This document shows, one piece after another, positions 11,386-59,705 of a stretch of DNA of 64,000 nucleotides. Source of the DNA: Pseudomonadales bacterium. GTDB taxonomy: Bacteria; Pseudomonadota; Gammaproteobacteria; Pseudomonadales; Azotimanducaceae. A program made the position numbers and the translations under genes. Numbering within the stretch: position 1 is the stretch's first letter; each line of letters opens with the position of its first letter. The notes beneath the pieces were generated by a model that had not been told where the DNA came from, searched no databases, and was given only the letters and a program-made list of their open reading frames with translations. The stretch lies in assembly GCA_022822135.1 (NCBI GenBank), contig JAJECH010000018.1:62001-126000 (forward strand), in the 5' to 3' direction.

Positions 11386-14130
11386 CTAAAGTTCCCATTT
11401 AGCGTTGAGTAGCACAGACGTGCCGACGTTCTGTTCAATCACGCTCACGTCGCCTTGTGTTACTTCAATAGTTGAACCAAGGATATTTCTGACGCGTAGT
11501 TTGAAGGACAAGCTCTCCGACGGGTAATACGCATAGACGAAATCCAACGAGTTGAACGGTTGCTCGTAGCCGTCAGGCTGTCCACTGATACCTGCGAAGA
11601 ACACACGTTCGCCAAACGCGTTGTATACGATCGAGCCCGAGTGTTTTAGATCCAACGCGTCGAATCCGACCTGTAGATTGAGAACCCATGGAGATTGTTG
11701 CGTCATCGTTCGACGTTCATTCGTAATGTCGCCGACGCCGTGCCCAACGGGGATATAGATTTCGGAATCGCTGAGGGTTGTATTCCCAGCGAAATAAAGC
11801 GTTTCCGTCCATTCACCCCAGTTCGACAGAAAGTCAAGCGTCTTCCTCCACTCGACTTCGACACCGTATACCTCTGCGCTGTCGGCGTTTACGAAGTTAA
11901 AACGAATGTTGTCCTCGGTCGCCCCGCCTTGAACTGTTTCAATCGGATTGGCAACATCCTTAAGAAAAATCGAAACGGAAAACAAATCGCTGTTCGACCA
12001 GAACCATTCTCCGCGCACGTCGAGGTTTGTGAGGTCGCTAACAACCAAATTCGGATTCCCACGGACACGCGCTTCCGTCAATGGATCAATATACGTCGAA
12101 GCAGACATTTCGCGAATGTCAGGTCGCGCTACCGTCCGCGACACGCCCGCACGCAGCTGGAACTCATCCGCCCATATTCCCGGGTGGATGTATGTCATTG
12201 CTGCACTTGGATACACGTCTTCAGTCTTTAGTCGAGCGAAACCATCCAGATCAAGGCGTCGCGAGTCGTACTGTAAGTAATCAACTGGTAACACCACTTG
12301 CTCGAAAAGTTCAGAACGAACGCCACCCGACAGTCGCCAGGTCTCATTAATCAGTACGTCAATCTTGCCATAACCGGCTTCAACGAATTGGTCTGCGATG
12401 TAGCTCTCCGAACCAAACGCGCCAATGCCGACGATTAATTCCATACCGTATCTGGGGTTCAGAATGTTCGTATCCGAGAACACCGCAGACGGCGTGTTCG
12501 AACTAATGGCGTTAAAGCCTGGGATTGATGATCCAAGTCCAAGCGACGTCTGTCGGTAGTTGCGCGACTTGTACAGATAGTCGTATCCCCCAGAAAGTTC
12601 AATGCTCATGTTGTCGTGAAAGAAGGGGAACGACGCGTCCCAACCGTAGGTTTCGATTTCATCGCTCAAGTCAGAGTAACGAAATTCGGCGGACGTGGCA
12701 GTCGTACGAACAGAAAAGTTAGTCGCTTCGCCGTTTGGACCTGACAGTCTCTCCTGACCACTTATCGAGACTTCGTGAGGCAGCGCGGTTTCAGCCGTTG
12801 CGAACGTGTAGTACCAAGCGATGTTTCCCTCACGCAAGAACTCCATGAAATCGGGGAGCACATCTAATGTCTCATCGCCCAGCGTGTGTTTGCCGTTAAA
12901 CTGGTGCATCAACATTTCCCGTTGTTCGTATCGCATGCCATGGATACGACCTTGGACAGGGCTTGATTCATCCATGCAGTCGTTGTATTGACCTTGTGAG
13001 CAAGTGCGGGTGCTTGTCGCGTCGTCTTCAGTATTACGCAGTAACAGATGGATAGAACCAAGTTCGTGATCGTCGGTTAAGCGAATTCCAAAGTTCAATG
13101 AGCCTGTGATATTGACTTCGTGTGTGGTTCGCAAAGACTCAGCGAAATCAGTCGTCGGGTTCGAGACTCGTCGCACGATTCGCTCCCGATTCCTTTCATC
13201 ATTGGCATAGGAACCCAGTGCGAGCACGCCCACATCGAAACGGTCGTTGATATAGTGCCTATAACCCGCGAGTAGCTCACCTTCTATGTCGGGTGCAGTC
13301 TGTTGTGTGGTGAAATCAAGGTTGCGATTTAGCAGGGTTGCCAACTGTCGGTTAACACCTTTTGCTACTTCGATGCTGTTAATCGACTGACCACTAGCCG
13401 AGGAACGCAGAATCGTCACTGGCGACAATGAACCGCGATAGGTATCGATCGCTTGGAAAATCGCCGGCGCAATCGCGCGCGTGCCGTCATCGACACCGAG
13501 TGCGTCATCCCCGCCACCGGGATAACTCAGACCATCACCACTCTCTGAATTAGTACCAGTCTTGATCTCGATATGGAACAATCCCGCTTCCGGAACGCGC
13601 TTGGTTCGAATATCGACATTACCGCCGCCGAATGACGCGCCCAATTCAGGCGAGTACCCTTTTTGAACTTTCATCGAATCAATGATGTCAGCGGGGAAAA
13701 TGTCGAGTGGAATGACATTTCGCGTGATGTCGGGCGAGGGCACCGATGATCCATTAAGCTGAGCGCTCGAGTAGCGCTCGCCTAACCCTCGAACGTAAAC
13801 AAACTTGCCTTGCGCAAGGGTCAAACCCGGCATCCGTCGAAGAAGTGCGGCGGCGTCGCTATCACCTACCCGTGCGATAAACTCCGAGTCGACGAAATCA
13901 GCTTGGACATCGAGAAGGATCCTCTCAGACTCGACATCCGTTTCCGTCGCGAGGCTCTGACCAAAAACGTTCAACTCCTCAAGTTGCTGCTGTGAAACCG
14001 TTGAGCTTTCATATTCCGACTCGGCTTCCTCGGTCGTTTCTTGGGCGTTCGCAGTACTGAACACCAAAAGCACGCATAACGCTGAGCACCTTAAGAGCGA
14101 AGCAATCTTGGATCCTTGAAGTTGATTCAT
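11386..14130 (-). CDS. TonB-dependent outer-membrane receptor
   Basis: A 914-residue receptor with a signal peptide (cleavage near residue 29, TANA-QE), a plug domain (about 60-190, with VYVRGLGERYSSAQLNG and PLDIFPADIIDSMKVQKGY), and a large beta-barrel ending in an aromatic-poor KWEL terminus. No unmistakable TonB box was found between residues 35 and 60. It lies 33 bases downstream of a lipoprotein gene on the same strand, and both are preceded by a Pho-box array at 15814-15853. I infer uptake of a phosphorus-containing substrate in partnership with that lipoprotein. Confidence 0.9.
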   Translation of the reverse strand: MNQLQGSKIASLLRCSALCVLLVFSTANAQETTEEAESEYESSTVSQQQLEELNVFGQSLATETDVESERILLDVQADFVDSEFIARVGDSDAAALLRRMPGLTLAQGKFVYVRGLGERYSSAQLNGSSVPSPDITRNVIPLDIFPADIIDSMKVQKGYSPELGASFGGGNVDIRTKRVPEAGLFHIEIKTGTNSESGDGLSYPGGGDDALGVDDGTRAIAPAIFQAIDTYRGSLSPVTILRSSASGQSINSIEVAKGVNRQLATLLNRNLDFTTQQTAPDIEGELLAGYRHYINDRFDVGVLALGSYANDERNRERIVRRVSNPTTDFAESLRTTHEVNITGSLNFGIRLTDDHELGSIHLLLRNTEDDATSTRTCSQGQYNDCMDESSPVQGRIHGMRYEQREMLMHQFNGKHTLGDETLDVLPDFMEFLREGNIAWYYTFATAETALPHEVSISGQERLSGPNGEATNFSVRTTATSAEFRYSDLSDEIETYGWDASFPFFHDNMSIELSGGYDYLYKSRNYRQTSLGLGSSIPGFNAISSNTPSAVFSDTNILNPRYGMELIVGIGAFGSESYIADQFVEAGYGKIDVLINETWRLSGGVRSELFEQVVLPVDYLQYDSRRLDLDGFARLKTEDVYPSAAMTYIHPGIWADEFQLRAGVSRTVARPDIREMSASTYIDPLTEARVRGNPNLVVSDLTNLDVRGEWFWSNSDLFSVSIFLKDVANPIETVQGGATEDNIRFNFVNADSAEVYGVEVEWRKTLDFLSNWGEWTETLYFAGNTTLSDSEIYIPVGHGVGDITNERRTMTQQSPWVLNLQVGFDALDLKHSGSIVYNAFGERVFFAGISGQPDGYEQPFNSLDFVYAYYPSESLSFKLRVRNILGSTIEVTQGDVSVIEQNVGTSVLLNAKWEL

Positions 14131-14163: not shown

Positions 14164-15726
14164 TTAGAGAAACCAGGGACCACAGGATTCGGTCGCACGT
14201 GCGCGAAGACAAATCGCCCAACCTTCGGTCCAGTCGTTAGCGCGAGTAACCGCACCGATGTGAGTCGCCCCATTTGAGGGTGTAACAGTGAACGCTTCTC
14301 CTTCTGCATCAGCAAAGGAGGTTGCGGTATAGAAACCTGTAAGTAGCTGAATGTCGGTGTCTAGCACGGCGTCGCCGTTACCTTGAATCGCAACGTTGTT
14401 TGTTCCCGCCGCAAACCAATCCGCAACGCTGGTGCCGTTCGCTAGGGAGTCTTTACCTACCTCGTCGCAAGCGATCACGGTACTGTTGATAGTCGTAGCG
14501 CCATTCTGAGCGTGCATGCGCGTTTCGGCTTCGTCCAACTCAAGACACTCATTGCCGTTAACGCCTTCTTCATTCGCATACAGATCAACGACAATGCTGT
14601 TGTTGATCGTCGACATGACGCCACGGCGAAGCAGGATGCCCTCGGAATCACCGTGCGTTCCTAACCCGCCGCCTTCAACACTGTCCGAACCGGAAGTGAT
14701 GCACGTCATGTTGTTGATCGTGCCGTTCGTATTGGGCTGCGCGTCGAACACGCTTCCTTGGTTATCCGCTTCGATGCACCGATTGCCGTTATCACGGTGA
14801 TGAATGATCAGTGCGTTATTTACTGAACCTACCCACCCATCAGCGTAGTCAATGGAATCGTCATTGACATAGAGCGCAATCAAGTTTGAAACAGAGACTG
14901 CACCACCAAAGAACTCAACACCATCATCAAACGTCGAATAAACCTGGATGTTTTCAATCGTCGTGCCGCTACCAACCGCATTAAGCGTCAGTCCATTCAG
15001 CTCGTCGCCGGGCGCGGCTTCAGAACCGGAGTGCTTGATGATGACGTAAGTAAGTGTTCCTGAACTGTCAGCGTTGTCATTTCCACCGTAGTGACTAGGC
15101 TTCCCTTCAGACTGGATATGGCAAGTGTCGTTTGCGCGTTGCTCGTCGCTGCATTTGTTCGTAATTCCCTTGCCATTGATGACCACACCACCCCACAACT
15201 GGACATCGTCAAAAGCCGCCGTACCCGAGACTGCGTCTTCGTAACCCGTCAAAGTAATCGGTGCAGTCGACGTGCCGTTCGCTTGCATAGCAGAACCGCG
15301 CGTGACCAGAAGGTAGTCGTCTTTGTTCGTCCATACCAATGTGTTTCCAGCATCAACGGTTAGCGTTGGACCATCAGGCGGAGTACCAGTGTCAACGTCT
15401 TCGCCGACTTGTAACGTCGCTTCGAAAATGTGCACACCATCGATCAACGGAATGGTGAGATCCACGCTCAATGGCGAGTCTTCACTTACAAATAGAGATG
15501 AGTACACGCAGTTGTCGCCGTCGACTTGTCCTTGGCGAGTCGTACCACTTTCAGTGTATGACGCGCATGGATTCGTTGCGGTTGGGGTCGTTGGTGCTGG
15601 CGCAGGAGCAGGCGCGGGAGGATCAACAGCAATATTGCTGCCTCCGCCGCCACATGCTTGAAGGAATATGAAGAGGAGACTGGATGCTACAACTCCAATG
15701 CGATTAAAAATACCCGCGACGTACAT
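14164..15726 (-). CDS. Surface lipoprotein with beta-helix-like repeats
   Basis: A 520-residue predicted lipoprotein: signal helix, then lipobox LQAC with Cys25 followed by a Gly run and a Pro/Ala-rich linker (about 35-50). The body holds repeated short beta-strand units rich in Asn, Gly and Asp (TIENIQVYS, GAVSVSNLIALYV), suggesting a right-handed beta-helix. Several Cys residues occur (as in DTCHIQ and NRCIEAD). It belongs to no enzyme family I recognise. It precedes the TonB-dependent receptor gene and lies directly downstream of tandem Pho boxes, so it is probably a phosphate-starvation substrate-binding lipoprotein of that receptor (inference). Confidence 0.78.
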   Translation of the reverse strand: MYVAGIFNRIGVVASSLLFIFLQACGGGGSNIAVDPPAPAPAPAPTTPTATNPCASYTESGTTRQGQVDGDNCVYSSLFVSEDSPLSVDLTIPLIDGVHIFEATLQVGEDVDTGTPPDGPTLTVDAGNTLVWTNKDDYLLVTRGSAMQANGTSTAPITLTGYEDAVSGTAAFDDVQLWGGVVINGKGITNKCSDEQRANDTCHIQSEGKPSHYGGNDNADSSGTLTYVIIKHSGSEAAPGDELNGLTLNAVGSGTTIENIQVYSTFDDGVEFFGGAVSVSNLIALYVNDDSIDYADGWVGSVNNALIIHHRDNGNRCIEADNQGSVFDAQPNTNGTINNMTCITSGSDSVEGGGLGTHGDSEGILLRRGVMSTINNSIVVDLYANEEGVNGNECLELDEAETRMHAQNGATTINSTVIACDEVGKDSLANGTSVADWFAAGTNNVAIQGNGDAVLDTDIQLLTGFYTATSFADAEGEAFTVTPSNGATHIGAVTRANDWTEGWAICLRARATESCGPWFL

Positions 15727-15813
15727 AGGTTCTCCGTGACAAAGGATCGAGATGTATTGACCAAGGGTGTCGTTCGTCGTCCCTGTGGCCGCGGGTAACG
15801 TTAGATCTGAGGT

Positions 15814-15853
15814 GTAACAGTTTTATGTCGGATATGTGTCAGATTAATGACAT
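15814..15853 (-). promoter_or_regulatory. Four-unit Pho-box array (PhoB binding)
   Basis: Read on the minus strand there are four 7-base units, ATGTCAT, CTGACAC, CCGACAT and CTGTTAC, each separated by exactly 4 A/T bases (TAAT, ATAT, AAAA). The PhoB consensus is CTGTCAY repeated every 11 bases with an A/T-rich spacer. Matches per unit are 6, 6, 5 and 6 of 7. The array ends 88 bases upstream of the lipoprotein start; TAACGT, 10 bases beyond the last unit, could be the -10 element. A hairpin with GGTGG/CCACC arms (15858-15875) lies between the array and the hisA stop. Confidence 0.75.
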
Positions 15854-15888: not shown

Positions 15889-16629
15889 TTAGAGGTTAGT
15901 TTTTAGTACTAGTACGCCTCTTCTAAAGTCCAAAACTCTCTCGTATAACGCACTGCCACTGATTGCCCCAAGCAACCGTTTTTCACCTACGCGAAGATCT
16001 CGGAGACGTTCTAGGTCGAGAATTCCTTTGACGCCGCCAGATGCGATGACTGGAATGTCCGTCGCAGCAAGGACCTGTTCGGTACGCTTGAGATTCACGC
16101 CTGTCATCATGCCATCGCTTTCAATGTCAGTGAACACCAATGCAAACAGTGGTAGTTCCGCACAAATCTCTAGTACTTCGAGAACTGACACCGTCGTCGT
16201 GGTTTTCCATCCGCGCGTGGATACAAAGCCTCCTCGCGCGTCAAGCGCAAGGATGATCTGATCCGGAAAACGATTTGCTACCGACGTGAAGAAATCTACG
16301 TCTTCAATCGCTTGCGTACCGATACAAACTTGGGAGATTCCTGCGTCAATCCAGGTCGACACAGCTTCCTCGGTACGAATACCGCCGCCAAGTTGCACTG
16401 GCGTACCGCCTGCCGCATCAACGATGGCACGAATACTCGTGTTGTTTTCAGACTGACCAGAAAACGCACCATCTAGGTCGACCACATGGATACGCTCTGC
16501 ACCTTCGTTAATCCAATGTGTCGCTAGTCGACCAGCATCGTTCTCGTAAATCGTCGCCGTATCAAGCAAACCACGCTTCAGTTGAACGCAATGACCGTCG
16601 TGTAAATCGATGGCCGGTATCAGGATCAC
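15889..16629 (-). CDS. hisA: ProFAR isomerase HisA
   Basis: This TIM-barrel enzyme performs the Amadori isomerisation in histidine biosynthesis. The 246-residue protein has the catalytic Asp in [16 protein letters not shown], the phosphate-binding QLGGGIR and ASGGVKG. It overlaps hisB by 4 bases. hisH and hisF, which normally flank hisA, are absent here. Confidence 0.95.
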
Positions 16630-22607: not shown

Positions 22608-23375
22608 TCAGTCCGCTTGTAGTTTCTCGAGTTCTCTGATCCAGATGTTGCGGAACTGGACCCGATCGCCATGATCCTGTAACACCAACGGCCCTTTTGG
22701 ACCATGTGGGTCAGCATACGACGCCAATGCACGATGTTGGGTAGGTCCTTGCATCTCCTGCCTGTGATGTACTAATACGCCGTTATGAAAAACCGTCATT
22801 GCTGCGGGTTTCGCCAGCTTTCCGTGATGGTACTCCGGAGATTCGAAAACCACGTCGTAGGTGTGCCATACCCCAGGTGGTACGCAAACGTTTACTAAAG
22901 GCGGGTACTGCCCATAAATTGCTGCTGTGACGCCGTCAGCGTAGGTCGGGTTTTCGTAGCCATCCAAGACCTGGATTTCGTACAGACCAAGCAGGAAGAC
23001 ACCGCTATTACCTCGGCCTTGACTGTCGGCGTAGATCTCAGTCGGCGCTTTCCATTCAACATGAAGCTGGCACGTGCCGAATTCATCTTTCGATCGTATG
23101 TCACCTGTTCTAGGAGTGACTTCCATCGCATCTCCGTCCACCAGCGTCCATCCGCACGAGTCGCCATTTCGATGTATCCAGCCGTCCGTGCTAGTTCCAT
23201 CGAACAACACGAGCGCGTCAGATGGCGGTTCGCCAACCAATGCTTGTGTTGCGTCTGATGCGGGTGCTATGACCGGTGGCATCGGCCGATCCACATCATG
23301 AACACGCCACACCTGACCAGGAATTACCGGAGTGTCGCTGTATCCTTTAGGAAGGACCCGGATTTCGTCAGACAT
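22608..23375 (-). CDS. DUF1080 (3-keto-disaccharide hydrolase-like) protein
   Basis: A 255-residue protein of the jelly-roll DUF1080 family, some members of which hydrolyse 3-keto-glycosides. Seen: ALVLFDGTSTDGW near residue 55, RGNSGVFLLGLYEIQVLD, and the C-terminal GPLVLQDHGDRVQFRNIWI. There is no signal peptide, so a cytoplasmic location is predicted, unusual for the family. Divergent from the DUF1592-type cytochrome gene, a pairing also common in planctomycetes. Confidence 0.85.
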   Translation of the reverse strand: MSDEIRVLPKGYSDTPVIPGQVWRVHDVDRPMPPVIAPASDATQALVGEPPSDALVLFDGTSTDGWIHRNGDSCGWTLVDGDAMEVTPRTGDIRSKDEFGTCQLHVEWKAPTEIYADSQGRGNSGVFLLGLYEIQVLDGYENPTYADGVTAAIYGQYPPLVNVCVPPGVWHTYDVVFESPEYHHGKLAKPAAMTVFHNGVLVHHRQEMQGPTQHRALASYADPHGPKGPLVLQDHGDRVQFRNIWIRELEKLQAD

Positions 23376-23667: not shown

Positions 23668-26196
23668 ATGTCGATACTAAGCGGTCTTCGTACACCTTTT
23701 GACCGATTTGATAGCGTAGGCTGCGTTCTGTTGCAAATTCAGCGCAAAGCCGAAATCAAACTCACTTTTTTCCGTCGCAGCTTAGGGCTAATCGCCTGTG
23801 CAGCGTTGCTGGCTGGTCCCTTACATGCGTTCGAGGAAGAAGTGCAGCCTTTGCTTACCTCGACATGCCTCGCGTGTCACAGCAATGAAGCACTGAGCAT
23901 GCTTGATTTCACCAAGTTGAGCCGCGATCTTTCCGATCCGGAAATCTATCGCAGGTGGGAACGGGTATTTGATCGTCTTGAGCGAGGCGAAATGCCCCCG
24001 GCACCGATGCCAACTCCAGATGCCACTTTGCTTGAACCAGCTATGGCTGCGCTCAAGCAAGCACTGACGGAAGCCAATCTTGAGCGACGCGGGACTCGTC
24101 GCACGTCGTTGCGACGTCTCACGCGACTGGAATATCAATACACGATTGAAGATCTGTTGCACATCGATCCCGAAGCAGCACAAGATATAGTCGTTGTGTT
24201 ACCCGTAGAGGCGGATTCGGGCGGTATCGATACCGTTGCCGCGAATCAGGGTATTTCGCCGCTACATGTGCGCGGATACATGGCTGCAGCACAGAATGCG
24301 CTCGACATTGCGTTGCAAGTGGGACCGCGACCTAATACTGGCATGTTCGTCGCGAACTACGCTAAATCTGGTTACCTACGTTTCATGTCGGACGCAGAGA
24401 TCCTCGGGGGCGGTATCACCAAAGTCCTCGATGACGCAGTAGTCGGCTATTTCGACGGCGGCTCGACGTATCTCTTTCACAGCGGCACCGAAGGCCATGA
24501 GGTGCCGATGCCAGGTCGATACACGGTCCGAGTTGACGCGTACCCCCATCGAAGTGTTAATCCCGTTACTTTTTCTATCGAATCTGGACCCAAGGCATCC
24601 GGTGCCACCGCCGTACTCTCGAATATGCTGGGGGTCTACGACTTAGATGAACCTGACGGTCGTCAAATCGAATTGACGACTTACCTAAGGCCTGGCGATG
24701 TCGTAACCCCTGTACCGTATCTCTCGATCCCGCCATGGGTATATATGTATTACGACCCGGATAAGAAAATCGATGAGTACGAAGGCGAAGGTATCGCTTT
24801 CAGATCATTAGCTATTCACGGGCCGCTTTTTGATCAATGGCCTCCGGCCAGTACGCGGCAATTGCTCGTTGGCATAGAGTTTCAGGATGGTCAACCTGTC
24901 TTAACTAAGTCACCAGAAACACATGTGCGTGAGGTAGTCGCTGCGTTTGCACCGCGCGCATTTCGACGTTCCCTTTCCGATCAGACGATCGACCGGTATG
25001 CCGCTTTGGCACATCCTGCCCTAGCTGAAGGTCGTAACTTTCTTGACGCAGTTCGAGTACCGTTGACTGCGATTTTGACCGCACCAGCGTTCCTTTTTCA
25101 ATCAGGGGAAGGCGAATACCTGGACCATTTTGCGCTCGCATCAAGAATGGCCTACTTCCTGTGGCGGAGCATGCCTGACGACGAGTTGCTTACCCTTGCG
25201 GCGAGCGGTGAGTTGTCTGATCCCGACGCGATCAAGTCTCAGATCGACCGTATGCTCGATGATCCTAAGAGCCAACGTTTTGTAAAAGATTTCGTCGGAC
25301 AAGCGTTTCGACTCTATGAGCTGCACGCCACTAGCCCAGACCCGAGACTGTACCCCGAGTACGACTCTAGACTCGCAAGGGCAATGGCTGAAGAAACCGA
25401 ACTATTCCTCGCCGAGCTTGTTGGGAATGATCATGGTGTACGCAATCTGATCAAAGCCGATTTCACGTTCTTGAATCGTCGATTGGCGGAACACTACGGT
25501 ATTGCAAACGTCGACGGCCAATATATGCGGAAGGTATCCCTGCCGAGCAATCACGTCCGTGGTGGCTTACTATCGCAAGCGTCCATTCACAAAATCACTG
25601 CCAACGGGACCACTACTTCGCCTGTACCTCGTGGCAACTTCGTATTAACCAACGTTCTCGGCCAACCTGCTCCGCCGCCACCCCCCAACGTCGCCGGACT
25701 TGAACCGGATACTCGTGGTGCAACAACCATTCGCGAACAGCTCGACGCGCATCGATCCAATACCGTATGCGCAAGCTGCCATCTCAGTATCGATCCGCCC
25801 GGCTTCGCGATGGAGTCGTTCGATCCTATTGGCGGATTTCGTAATCACTATCGATCAACCGGCGACCCGGTCACACTGGATGGTGAAGGTTTCGAAGGAC
25901 AGACGTTACCTGGTCCCTATCGGTTGGGTATGAAAGTCGACGCAAGCGGAGTAACGCCCGAAGGGGACTCCTTCTCAGGTTTCGCTGAATACCAGGATTT
26001 CATGGTTGATACGAAACTCAAATACGTTGCTCAGCATTTAGCATCTCAACTGATTGTCTTGGCCACAGGTGCGGAAGTGCAATTCGCGGATCGCGACGCA
26101 ATTAATAACATCATCGCTCAGGTCGAACCCGCTGATTACCCCATGCGAGGCTTGATTCATGCGGTGGTTCAAAGTGATCTCTTTGGGAGGCAGTAG
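23668..26196 (+). CDS. DUF1587/DUF1592/DUF1588/DUF1585 planctomycete-type cytochrome c protein
   Basis: A large secreted protein (842 aa as listed; the true start may lie later, just before the signal helix RRSLGLIACAALLAG). Domains in order: a c-type haem motif (CLACH, about residue 68), DUF1587 (about 125-180), a divergent beta-rich insert (about 210-400), DUF1595 (about 410-475), DUF1592 (about 480-610), DUF1588 (about 640-740, with a second CxxCH motif, CASCH), and DUF1585. Function is unestablished. It is coupled to the DUF1552 gene with 2 bases between. The two families nearly always occur together. Confidence 0.88.
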   Translation: MSILSGLRTPFDRFDSVGCVLLQIQRKAEIKLTFFRRSLGLIACAALLAGPLHAFEEEVQPLLTSTCLACHSNEALSMLDFTKLSRDLSDPEIYRRWERVFDRLERGEMPPAPMPTPDATLLEPAMAALKQALTEANLERRGTRRTSLRRLTRLEYQYTIEDLLHIDPEAAQDIVVVLPVEADSGGIDTVAANQGISPLHVRGYMAAAQNALDIALQVGPRPNTGMFVANYAKSGYLRFMSDAEILGGGITKVLDDAVVGYFDGGSTYLFHSGTEGHEVPMPGRYTVRVDAYPHRSVNPVTFSIESGPKASGATAVLSNMLGVYDLDEPDGRQIELTTYLRPGDVVTPVPYLSIPPWVYMYYDPDKKIDEYEGEGIAFRSLAIHGPLFDQWPPASTRQLLVGIEFQDGQPVLTKSPETHVREVVAAFAPRAFRRSLSDQTIDRYAALAHPALAEGRNFLDAVRVPLTAILTAPAFLFQSGEGEYLDHFALASRMAYFLWRSMPDDELLTLAASGELSDPDAIKSQIDRMLDDPKSQRFVKDFVGQAFRLYELHATSPDPRLYPEYDSRLARAMAEETELFLAELVGNDHGVRNLIKADFTFLNRRLAEHYGIANVDGQYMRKVSLPSNHVRGGLLSQASIHKITANGTTTSPVPRGNFVLTNVLGQPAPPPPPNVAGLEPDTRGATTIREQLDAHRSNTVCASCHLSIDPPGFAMESFDPIGGFRNHYRSTGDPVTLDGEGFEGQTLPGPYRLGMKVDASGVTPEGDSFSGFAEYQDFMVDTKLKYVAQHLASQLIVLATGAEVQFADRDAINNIIAQVEPADYPMRGLIHAVVQSDLFGRQ

Positions 26197-56903: not shown

Positions 56904-59705
56904 TTAGGATCCGAACCGGTACCTTAACTTCAACACAATGACGTCTACGATCGGGTCACGTAGTGCTTCTCGAAAGAGACGATCAAACTCCGCATGTCCG
57001 AGACTCGGCAAATTGCTTCCTCGTGTGTAGACCACGAAGAGGTCAGATAAAGGTGCAATTTCCCATCGATAACGGACCTGTGCTGTCAAACGTGAAATCG
57101 TGAAATCTTTCGAGTCAGCGCTCAGTTCATCACGCGTTATTGATACGAGCTTGCCGAGTTCCTCAGGGACTCGCCAAAAGTCTCGTTCCGTAGCGTTGAT
57201 TCCAGTCCACTGTAAAGTGGCTCGGAACTGCTGTCGTGCCGATATGAAGAAATCAAAACCAAATAGATGAGATAACTGTTCACTATAGAAGCGTGTGAAG
57301 TCCCCATCACCCCTATGAAGTAACCAACCTTTACTATCGCGAAATCTCAAGTCGTAATCGAGCCGCAAACGGGAGATGGGACTATACGTAAATCCAATAT
57401 CACCAATATATGCTGGATCACCTAGTTCATCGTCCATAAGGCCCGTTTGAACAGAGTAAGAGAACTTTTTAGCAGTATCGGTACCGTAGGTGATCGTAAT
57501 GAACTTCGTAGGTTCGACCTCGAAACTGCCATTTCCGAAGCTACTTCGATCGTCGACTATTTCCGGTCGATATGACAGTTGTACGTTCAGCGCAGACTGA
57601 TTAGCGAAGTAGAACCCGATCCCAGAGCCAATATAGGATCGAATCAATTCACCGTCCGAATTCGCTTGACTGGACAAGAAAAGTCCGATCGATCGTGACC
57701 GCAGAAATCCAGGCAAGTCACGTGAGGTATTGTGAAATCTTGCGTAACGAAAACCGCGCAAATCGTTCCGTCGTAAAAAACCAAGGTCACGGACATCCAA
57801 GGTGTCGTCGAGAAAATCTAACGAGAGCCTGTGAAAAATCCCTTGCTTAGGCGTGAAACGAATGTCAGCAAACCCGCCGTACCCAGACTCTGAGTCTTTT
57901 TGTGAATTGATCAGCTGGGAATCAATACTCCACTTCCCGCTCTGCGTCAGGAAATGGGAGTCAAGACCATTGACTACCGCACTGTATTCAGGCGTATCTG
58001 CAAGTGTCGTGATGAAACCGTGCGCTTGACGACCAGTCCCTGATTGACGCTCCCACAGTACGCGTGCCACGCCAAAATCGCGACCTGTGGACGATACGAT
58101 GACATCCTCTTCTTTAAGAGTCCCTTCATCATCCGTGTGCTCCACGGTCCCGCGCAACGCAACGTCGTCCTCGACTGCACCCAGAAAGCCAAAACGAAAT
58201 GCGCTGGCTTGCCCAACTACTTTAACGGCGCCTAGGAGATCAGTAGGTTTGCTTAGCTCGGGACCAGGCACGTCTATCACGTCTCTGTCATAATCCAGAT
58301 GCTTCGCGGATCCACCTATACGCCGAGTGTTCAGCAAGGTAGTCGGCTCCATGGTATAGGTAGACGGTGCTACGCGAGCACCCCCGCTTTGTGAACTTCC
58401 ACGAAAAGGTGTGCCGCGCGGTGTCGTCTCGAACACCTCTGATCCTTCAAGGAAAAACAGCCGCTTCTCAGGGAAGAACGTCTCGTAAGCGGTGAGATTG
58501 ACAACGACATCGTCTGACTCCACCGCACCGAAATCAGGATTCGCTGCGCCAGTCACCTGTAGATTTGGCGCGGGTCGCCACGAGAAATTCAAGCCAACCT
58601 TTCGGTCCATTTCGTCGTAGATTCCATCAGCACTCGTCGTTGCGTACGGAAAAAGCTCCCACTGTTGTTTTGGATTCACGTCCTCCATGGCCATAGGTTG
58701 CATCGCTGACATGAAGCGAGCTTGAGTGAACGGTAGCGCTGGCCAACCGTAACGTTCATTGCGAAACGCAACTTGACGATTAACGTAGAAGCTCATGTTG
58801 CGTTCGCCGCCACCAGGTGGCATGGCCAAGATTGACCACGGGATAAAGATCTCCGCAGCCCAGCCACTAGCGGTCACCGCCGTCGCGCCGTGCCACGCAC
58901 CATCCCATTCTCTGCTGAAATTCCGTTCCGGTAATACCTTACCGTCTTCCTTCGAACCGCCAAGGTTGACCGCAAACCAAAACCCGAACATGCCCTTACC
59001 GGAAGTGTCGAGAGTGATCCCGAAGCCATCTCGATTTAGGTCTTGGTCACGAGCGGATAACCGCTGCACCAACGTATCTGCCGGTTGCTCCATATCTGCC
59101 GACACGTAGAGTCCACGCTGGGTATAGAAAATCCGAACGAATGTACGAAACTCGGGCGTAACGAGTGTGTCCGGCGAAACAACAATCATGTTCTCGAAAC
59201 CGTCCACTCGTGTCCATGCATCTTCGTCGAGGTGACCATCAATCACGATGTCTACGCCATTCAGTTCCACCAAGTTCATTTGAGGAGGGATATCAATCAC
59301 ACGCCCCGAACCGGAATACGTCACTTCACCATCGGATCCGGATTCGTTCGTTTGGATGTCTGTGAGCGGGAGACTACGCAAACTAGAAGTCGCATCTACA
59401 TCGTCAGAAGCAGCCGTCGGACGCGAAGAAAGCGTGGCTTCTCGCGTCAAGGTAAATAAACTCGGACCGGATGCGGGACGCACCTCTGCCGCAGATACCA
59501 CTGGCTGAGCAACCGATGGTGGCGAACGCATGTCACGCATCGCCGCACTACGAGCCGCGCGGTCTTTTTGACCAAGCACTAACCCACTAAATGGGTCGTC
59601 GTCAGACGATGTTGGTGTTTCGTTCGCCAGGAGCGTGTGTGCGAAAAATGTAAGTGTCGCGAGTACTGCGAAAGAGAAATATCTGCGTCTGCTACACACG
59701 CTCAA
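56904..59705 (-). CDS. CBM9-like / DUF5916 outer-membrane protein
   Basis: A 933-residue exported protein. Signal peptide, then a low-complexity region (about 30-115), a CBM9-like carbohydrate-binding module (about 145-330; IDGHLDEDAWTRVDGF, YVSADMEQP, GFWFAVNLGG), and a long DUF5916 region rich in alternating aromatic strands, resembling an outer-membrane barrel and ending KLRYRFGS. Likely surface-located; a glycan-related role is suggested by CBM9. Convergent with the PanE-like gene. Confidence 0.88.
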   Translation of the reverse strand: MSVCSRRRYFSFAVLATLTFFAHTLLANETPTSSDDDPFSGLVLGQKDRAARSAAMRDMRSPPSVAQPVVSAAEVRPASGPSLFTLTREATLSSRPTAASDDVDATSSLRSLPLTDIQTNESGSDGEVTYSGSGRVIDIPPQMNLVELNGVDIVIDGHLDEDAWTRVDGFENMIVVSPDTLVTPEFRTFVRIFYTQRGLYVSADMEQPADTLVQRLSARDQDLNRDGFGITLDTSGKGMFGFWFAVNLGGSKEDGKVLPERNFSREWDGAWHGATAVTASGWAAEIFIPWSILAMPPGGGERNMSFYVNRQVAFRNERYGWPALPFTQARFMSAMQPMAMEDVNPKQQWELFPYATTSADGIYDEMDRKVGLNFSWRPAPNLQVTGAANPDFGAVESDDVVVNLTAYETFFPEKRLFFLEGSEVFETTPRGTPFRGSSQSGGARVAPSTYTMEPTTLLNTRRIGGSAKHLDYDRDVIDVPGPELSKPTDLLGAVKVVGQASAFRFGFLGAVEDDVALRGTVEHTDDEGTLKEEDVIVSSTGRDFGVARVLWERQSGTGRQAHGFITTLADTPEYSAVVNGLDSHFLTQSGKWSIDSQLINSQKDSESGYGGFADIRFTPKQGIFHRLSLDFLDDTLDVRDLGFLRRNDLRGFRYARFHNTSRDLPGFLRSRSIGLFLSSQANSDGELIRSYIGSGIGFYFANQSALNVQLSYRPEIVDDRSSFGNGSFEVEPTKFITITYGTDTAKKFSYSVQTGLMDDELGDPAYIGDIGFTYSPISRLRLDYDLRFRDSKGWLLHRGDGDFTRFYSEQLSHLFGFDFFISARQQFRATLQWTGINATERDFWRVPEELGKLVSITRDELSADSKDFTISRLTAQVRYRWEIAPLSDLFVVYTRGSNLPSLGHAEFDRLFREALRDPIVDVIVLKLRYRFGS

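Follow-up and report, generated by a model that had tools for sequence, protein, structure and literature searches.

In water, dissolved phosphorus is frequently bound up in compounds that pass porins poorly. We analyzed a 64-kb stretch of DNA (64,000 nucleotides, here called the window) from a Pseudomonadales bacterium, in which short direct repeats precede genes for a lipoprotein and a TonB-dependent receptor. Do these repeats place the two genes under the control of PhoB, and what might the pair then do for the cell? From the sequence, we consider it very likely that the lipoprotein/receptor pair is controlled by PhoB through a tandem Pho box.

A putative four-unit Pho box precedes the gene pair

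The features of the locus are these:

15889..16629, minus strand: hisA, the upstream neighbor, with 35 bp between its end and the array
15814..15853, minus strand: candidate four-unit Pho-box array, scored against the consensus as described below
15847-15853, minus strand: array unit 1, ATGTCAT
15836-15842, minus strand: array unit 2, CTGACAC
15825-15831, minus strand: array unit 3, CCGACAT
15814-15820, minus strand: array unit 4, CTGTTAC
15798..15803, minus strand: TAACGT, a −10 element by prediction only, starting 10 nt past unit 4
15730..15735, minus strand: GGAGAA, likely ribosome-binding site, identified by eye
14164..15726, minus strand: lipoprotein gene, 520 aa, ElpS-like by gene layout
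11386..14130, minus strand: TonB-dependent receptor gene, 914 aa, second gene of a presumed unit

Read on the minus strand from 15853 to 15814, the array is ATGTCAT-taat-CTGACAC-atat-CCGACAT-aaaa-CTGTTAC. The preliminary description of four 7-base units at an exact 11-base period, separated by 4-base A/T spacers, is borne out by the sequence: the spacers taat, atat, and aaaa are all A/T and all 4 bases long. The array does precede the lipoprotein and receptor genes, as had also been stated, and it ends 87 nt before the lipoprotein ATG. Its units are imperfect. Each has one or two mismatches to CTGTCAY, five in total, giving a score of 23/28 against four copies of the consensus.

No other site in the 64-kb window reached a score of at least 21 on either strand. 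When the 350-nt upstream region containing the array was shuffled with dinucleotides preserved, 0 of 200 shuffles reached 23/28 (p at the 0.005 floor). We extended the search to the whole genome (3.75 Mb, 97.6% complete) with a three-unit pattern, and the array was the only place with at most one mismatch. Allowing up to two mismatches gave five matches, two of which are registers of the array, versus one for the reversed control. A loose two-unit pattern was uninformative on this scale, with 305 + 325 matches versus 302 + 309 for its reversed control. One two-unit site in the window (58274-58291) lies inside a long open reading frame on the opposite strand, and we took it to be a chance match.

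The array is conserved in many homologous loci, at a period of 11 only

The preliminary description had also suggested comparing the same intergenic region in homologous loci. Counting the window's own, 18 of the 58 genomes had a homologue of the lipoprotein. The comparison set had 91 loci: the window, 11 stretches of relatives, and 79 loci from a genome-collection scan. The last group comes from the top 80 among 556 confirmed stretches, the best-scoring part of a larger set. In 85 of the 91 loci, the receptor gene followed the lipoprotein gene on the same strand, and in 84 of these, no more than 201 nt separated the two genes; no receptor match was found in the available stretch of the other 6. 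Start codons of the homologues were assigned by rule. Removal of three near-duplicates (L056, L089, and L119) left 88 upstream regions of 350 nt each.

The 11-bp periodicity, whose absence from homologous loci had been named as a refutation, was kept. At period 11, 36 of the 88 nonredundant upstream regions scored at least 20/28, whereas at each of the periods 7 to 10 and 12 to 16, only 0 or 1 of the 88 did; these counts are not independent, because the loci are related to one another. The other 52 regions fell below 20, and in some of them (L048, L083, L086, and L134, for example) no array is visible. Judged by shuffling instead, 48 of 91 loci had p ≤ 0.01 on the forward strand versus 12 of 91 on the reverse strand, which was itself mildly enriched. 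Within the 36 arrays, the four registers had mean unit scores of 5.7, 5.1, 5.1, and 5.8 of 7, and the flanking registers had means of 1.9 (preceding) and 3.0 (following); the background was 2.0. The following register, numbered 4, showed a slight excess. The 36 arrays had been chosen for having four units; therefore, the actual test is the finding that they hardly extend further.

The array is kept in two genomes of the same genus (G017 and G001, 23/28 each), and it scores 21 in a third (G004, locus L054). G006, also of this genus, has only two good units (17/28, p = 0.095). In an alignment of four same-genus gaps, the array was among the best-kept parts in three; G006 is the fourth of these gaps, and G004 counts as a fifth outside the alignment.

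A predicted −10 element lies at a constant distance from the array

We looked for the motif TAnnnT downstream of the 36 homologous arrays, a feature that had played no part in selecting them. It occurred exactly 10 nt past unit 4 in 22 of the 36, the window's array included. At the other 59 offsets examined in these arrays, the mean was 0.37 occurrences, and the highest was 4. In the window, the motif is TAACGT, and we predict from this spacing that the array stands in for the −35 element of the promoter. A scan for a sigma-70 consensus around the array found no match; this says little, because shuffles gave only 0.6 matches on average. Combining the array and the −10 element in a joint score gave about the same separation of targets and controls as the array score by itself.

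Four Escherichia coli promoters were scored in the same way. The pstS promoter, with four units scoring 26/28, has TATTTT at +10; phoA, whose box has two units and scores 13/14, has TATAGT there. In the best four-unit registers of the ugpB (23) and phoB (21) promoters, TAnnnT is absent at +10. Therefore, two of the four promoters (pstS and phoA) have the spacing seen in the window. The pstS promoter is a close parallel to the window's array, with four 11-bp units in the same sense and TAnnnT 10 nt past the last of them, although it is nearer to the consensus (26/28 versus 23/28) and drives expression of a periplasmic binding protein.

The earlier claim that both the periodicity and the unit sequence fit PhoB binding is supported by the score of 23/28, the enrichment at period 11 only, and the −10 spacing in 22 of 36 arrays. 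One alternative, that TGTCA-like words merely happen to follow one another in an intergenic gap, is extremely improbable. Such a run would sit well with the one or two mismatches in each unit and with the 52 homologous regions below 20. It would not readily produce the only site of at least 21 in the window, a score out of reach of 200 shuffles, retention in G017 and G001, or enrichment across 88 loci at a single period, and the tests of period and −10 spacing speak strongly against it.

Pho-type arrays also precede other genes at these loci

As controls, we used intergenic starts of other genes in these loci, and 6 of 191 scored at least 20. Compared with 36 of 88 for the lipoprotein gene, Fisher's p is about 3e-15 if the loci are taken as independent, although they are related. 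The six high-scoring controls precede phoB, pstS, DUF3450 genes (two), gspC, and a probable porin gene (called from the start of its sequence and a Porin_4 tally, without an individual domain scan). Judged by the genes that they precede, most of these six look like additional pho-regulated genes and only apparently like false positives. Among the genes scored in homologous loci, 20 was reached by one of eight gspC, one of five pstS, and one of ten phoB genes. The phoB figure shows that some genes for which PhoB control is expected also fall below the cutoff of 20.

The DUF3450 gene had an array of 19 to 25/28 in all eight relatives in which it was scored (L111, L101, L110, L095, L122, L126, L109, and L114), with TAnnnT at +10 in four. 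The start of the L110 gene is uncertain, because its best site overlaps the called start. At a cutoff of 19, the intergenic controls numbered 16 of 191, including at least two of these DUF3450 genes. The arrays in the eight relatives suggest that the DUF3450-ExbB-type TonB energizer cluster is phosphate controlled in several lineages. If so, phosphate starvation may bring its own outer membrane energy supply.

Two other genes with upstream arrays were noted individually. The probable porin gene in L093 (8990-9896) has a Pho-type array of 21/28, and it is perhaps a phosphoporin. In a Maricaulis genome, gspC (L116, 9137) has its own Pho-type array, 21/28, with TAATCG at +10.

PhoB is encoded in the genome, and pho genes lie near some homologous pairs

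A PhoB family search of the window's own genome matched nine places, of which only one exceeded the PhoB cutoff (302 bits versus 296.2). This protein is 47% identical to E. coli PhoB and keeps its RTVDVH and VQTVRG stretches. PstS is also encoded, and the open reading frames between and after phoB and pstS are, by eye, PhoR, PstC, PstA, PstB, and PhoU. The genome that has CTGTCAY direct repeats with an 11-bp period and a predicted −10 element about 10 nt downstream also encodes PhoB. The region upstream of its own phoB gene scored 19. Some 1.2 kb away from phoB, with one gene between, is a DUF3450-ExbB-ExbB-ExbD-TonB-TPR cluster, on a contig other than the window's; its DUF3450 gene was examined for an array, and none was found (15/28).

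BLAST with the window genome's proteins (cutoffs of at least 45% identity for PhoB and at least 35% for PstS or PhoU) found PhoB, PstS, or PhoU somewhere in the available stretch of 16 of the 88 loci. A more distant PhoB-type regulator, 36 to 41% identical to the window genome's PhoB, was found in 7 of 88. In these seven (L049, L059, L076, L078, L079, L085, and L087), it is close to the pair and is possibly a dedicated paralogue. In raw counts, pho genes or a PhoB-type regulator were present in 23 of 88 loci, a DUF3450/ExbD/TonB cluster was present in 11, and the union was 31. The nearest open reading frames of at least 130 aa were also scanned for families (118 of the 133 listed proteins). 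Families listed for the upstream neighbors (n = 60) included Response_reg (8), Trans_reg_C (8), PhoU (4), PstS type (3), PhoR (2), and PHO4 (1). Among those for the downstream neighbors (n = 58), DUF3450 (6) and T2SS protein C (3) stood alongside numerous unrelated families.

We considered whether the array might be bound by another regulator of the OmpR/PhoB family that has similar 11-bp half-sites and responds to a signal other than phosphate. The nine family matches in the genome, only one of them above the PhoB cutoff, and the regulator of only 36 to 41% identity near seven homologous pairs leave some room for this. However, the units fit CTGTCAY, the −10 spacing is that of E. coli pstS and phoA, phoB and pstS themselves are among the array-bearing control genes, and PhoB, PstS, or PhoU is encoded in 16 of the 88 loci. 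We regard binding by such a regulator as quite improbable. Control by PhoB is well supported because of the array, its conservation at period 11, the −10 spacing, and the neighborhoods with pho genes, although 52 of the 88 regions fall below 20.

The pair resembles ElpS and CC0171 of Caulobacter crescentus in gene layout

The lipoprotein has a lipobox, LQA-C25, recognized by eye, and it had no family match in Pfam (E ≤ 0.001) or NCBIfam. Its predicted model (pLDDT 87.8) is a mostly beta fold of short strands. A Foldseek search with this model found nothing at E ≤ 0.001 (best 0.005, TM 0.27); therefore, we do not claim an enzyme activity. The best of these weak matches were beta-helix proteins, namely tailspikes, alginate lyase, and polygalacturonases, with query TM scores of 0.1 to 0.33. 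The receptor gene begins 33 nt past the lipoprotein gene on the same strand. Its product carries plug and barrel domains (PF07715 and PF00593), and TonB-dependent receptors, PhuR and FecA among them, match its model (pLDDT 85.5). For neither protein did a sequence search against solved structures find a relative. For a lipoprotein left unnamed by annotation, with no Pfam or NCBIfam family, a conserved PhoB-type promoter provides a regulon-level handle.

A lipobox protein encoded beside a TonB-dependent receptor is the arrangement of the ElpS type. ElpS (CC0170) of C. crescentus is described as a surface lipoprotein made under phosphate starvation (PMC2996285). The window's pair is like ElpS and CC0171 in that a lipoprotein adjoins a TonB-dependent receptor and there is a link to phosphate starvation (PMC2996285), a likeness drawn from homologues that share this gene layout. 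The preliminary description had tied two otherwise anonymous outer membrane proteins to phosphate. The tie to phosphate stands at the level of sequence, but "anonymous" does not, given the ElpS/CC0171 layout (PMC2996285). The receptor gene cc0171 is reported, with the data not shown there, as not phosphate regulated, unlike elpS (PMC2996285). The Caulobacter PhoB regulon is reported to include the T2SS and several receptors (PMC11208175).

In Caulobacter, elpS and cc0171 are followed by T2SS genes, and this adjacency is described as conserved in some species and is not reported there as universal (PMC2996285). Unlike that arrangement, no T2SS gene was recognized beside the window's pair, and GspD is encoded elsewhere in the genome. 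We found gspC after the receptor gene in seven homologous loci, four from Oceanicaulis, Maricaulis, and Eilatimonas (L112, L116, L129, and L132) and three that are gammaproteobacterial (L065, L068, and L070). The first four are presumably alphaproteobacterial; of these, only L112 reaches 20 before the lipoprotein gene, and the other three score 17 to 18. All seven share the reported Caulobacter elpS-cc0171-T2SS layout (PMC2996285).

Two further systems can be compared by description. The low-phosphate-induced lipoproteins FI, FII, and FIII of Flavobacterium johnsoniae are reported to have modest homology with ElpS, and two of four uncharacterized low-phosphate lipoproteins of that species are encoded downstream of a receptor gene (PMC8115612). 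This is a Bacteroidetes system, and the receptor comes first, unlike the order in the window. The phosphate-controlled PusCD pairs, SusCD-like systems for phosphate utilization, likewise combine a receptor with a surface lipoprotein (PMC8115612). We rejected membership of the window's pair in SusCD/PusCD, as the lipoprotein has no Pfam family at E ≤ 0.001, SusD included, and its weak likeness is to beta-helix proteins. A literature search over the titles and abstract openings of the records listed found no description of a conserved Pho array before ElpS-type gammaproteobacterial pairs. The available part of PMC2536512 has nothing on this pair, that of PMC12872454 has nothing on the lipoprotein, and a phosphate passage was not found in that of PMC7190382.

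The pair might take up a phosphorus-containing substrate

Our proposed mechanism is as follows. Under phosphate starvation, phosphorylated PhoB would bind the array in place of a −35 element, probably as two dimers on the four units. Bound PhoB would recruit RNA polymerase to the predicted −10 element TAACGT ten nucleotides on, and the ElpS-like lipoprotein gene and the receptor gene would be cotranscribed. Their products most likely cooperate at the cell surface, where the lipoprotein might bind or present a phosphorus-containing substrate and the receptor might carry it across the outer membrane, powered by a TonB complex. Of the roles considered for the pair, uptake by a lipoprotein/receptor complex is the likeliest. 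Taken by itself, we hold this uptake step to be somewhat more probable than the alternatives together, and with it the substrate might be a phosphorus compound too large for porins, as had been suggested before.

The main rival to uptake keeps PhoB control and differs in what the proteins do. The pair might serve release instead, with a shed lipoprotein activating an extracellular phosphatase or with the receptor helping to export a protein. Release of ElpS is reported to depend on the T2SS, and its overproduction raises phosphatase activity in the supernatant (PMC2996285). There is also a precedent for export in Myxococcus, in which the receptor Oar helps to export the protease PopC (PMC6434023). 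In our data, gspC after the receptor gene in seven homologous loci is in line with release. However, the receptor has both a plug and a barrel and its model matches uptake receptors, a TonB energizer cluster is found in the available stretch of 11 of the 88 loci, and loss of elpS alone is reported to have caused no measured change in Caulobacter, phosphatase activity included (PMC2996285). We therefore consider release or phosphatase activation rather unlikely and favor uptake. With the conserved promoter, the ligand of ElpS-type systems becomes a directly testable question.

A broader version of the uptake reading is tentative but conceivable. In many gammaproteobacteria, and in at least one Caulobacter relative, PhoB might control a whole module for acquisition at the outer membrane. 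In such a module, an ElpS-like beta-helix lipoprotein would act as a SusD-like catcher alongside the receptor and a dedicated TonB energizer (DUF3450-ExbB-ExbB-ExbD-TonB-TPR), itself preceded by Pho arrays in several lineages; in some cases, the T2SS would also take part. The module would import a polymeric or complexed source of phosphorus.

Genomic neighborhood of the pair

In the window, the neighboring genes are hisB, hisA, and one for an M23 peptidase. Within the genus, the pair is patchy, with a match in 6 of 18 genomes. One of these matches is a decayed remnant (L017 in G007, about 1325-1749) that has only a short piece of the lipoprotein and C-terminal pieces of the receptor; hisA was not found around it in a 3.2-kb stretch. 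In all four same-genus loci with an intact or contig-cut pair (L044, L053, L045, and L054), hisA precedes the pair. Farther along the window, a large cytochrome-type protein (23668-26196) and its neighbor (22608-23375) resemble what we take to be Planctomycetes-type DUF1592/DUF1080 proteins, presumably unusual in a gammaproteobacterium.
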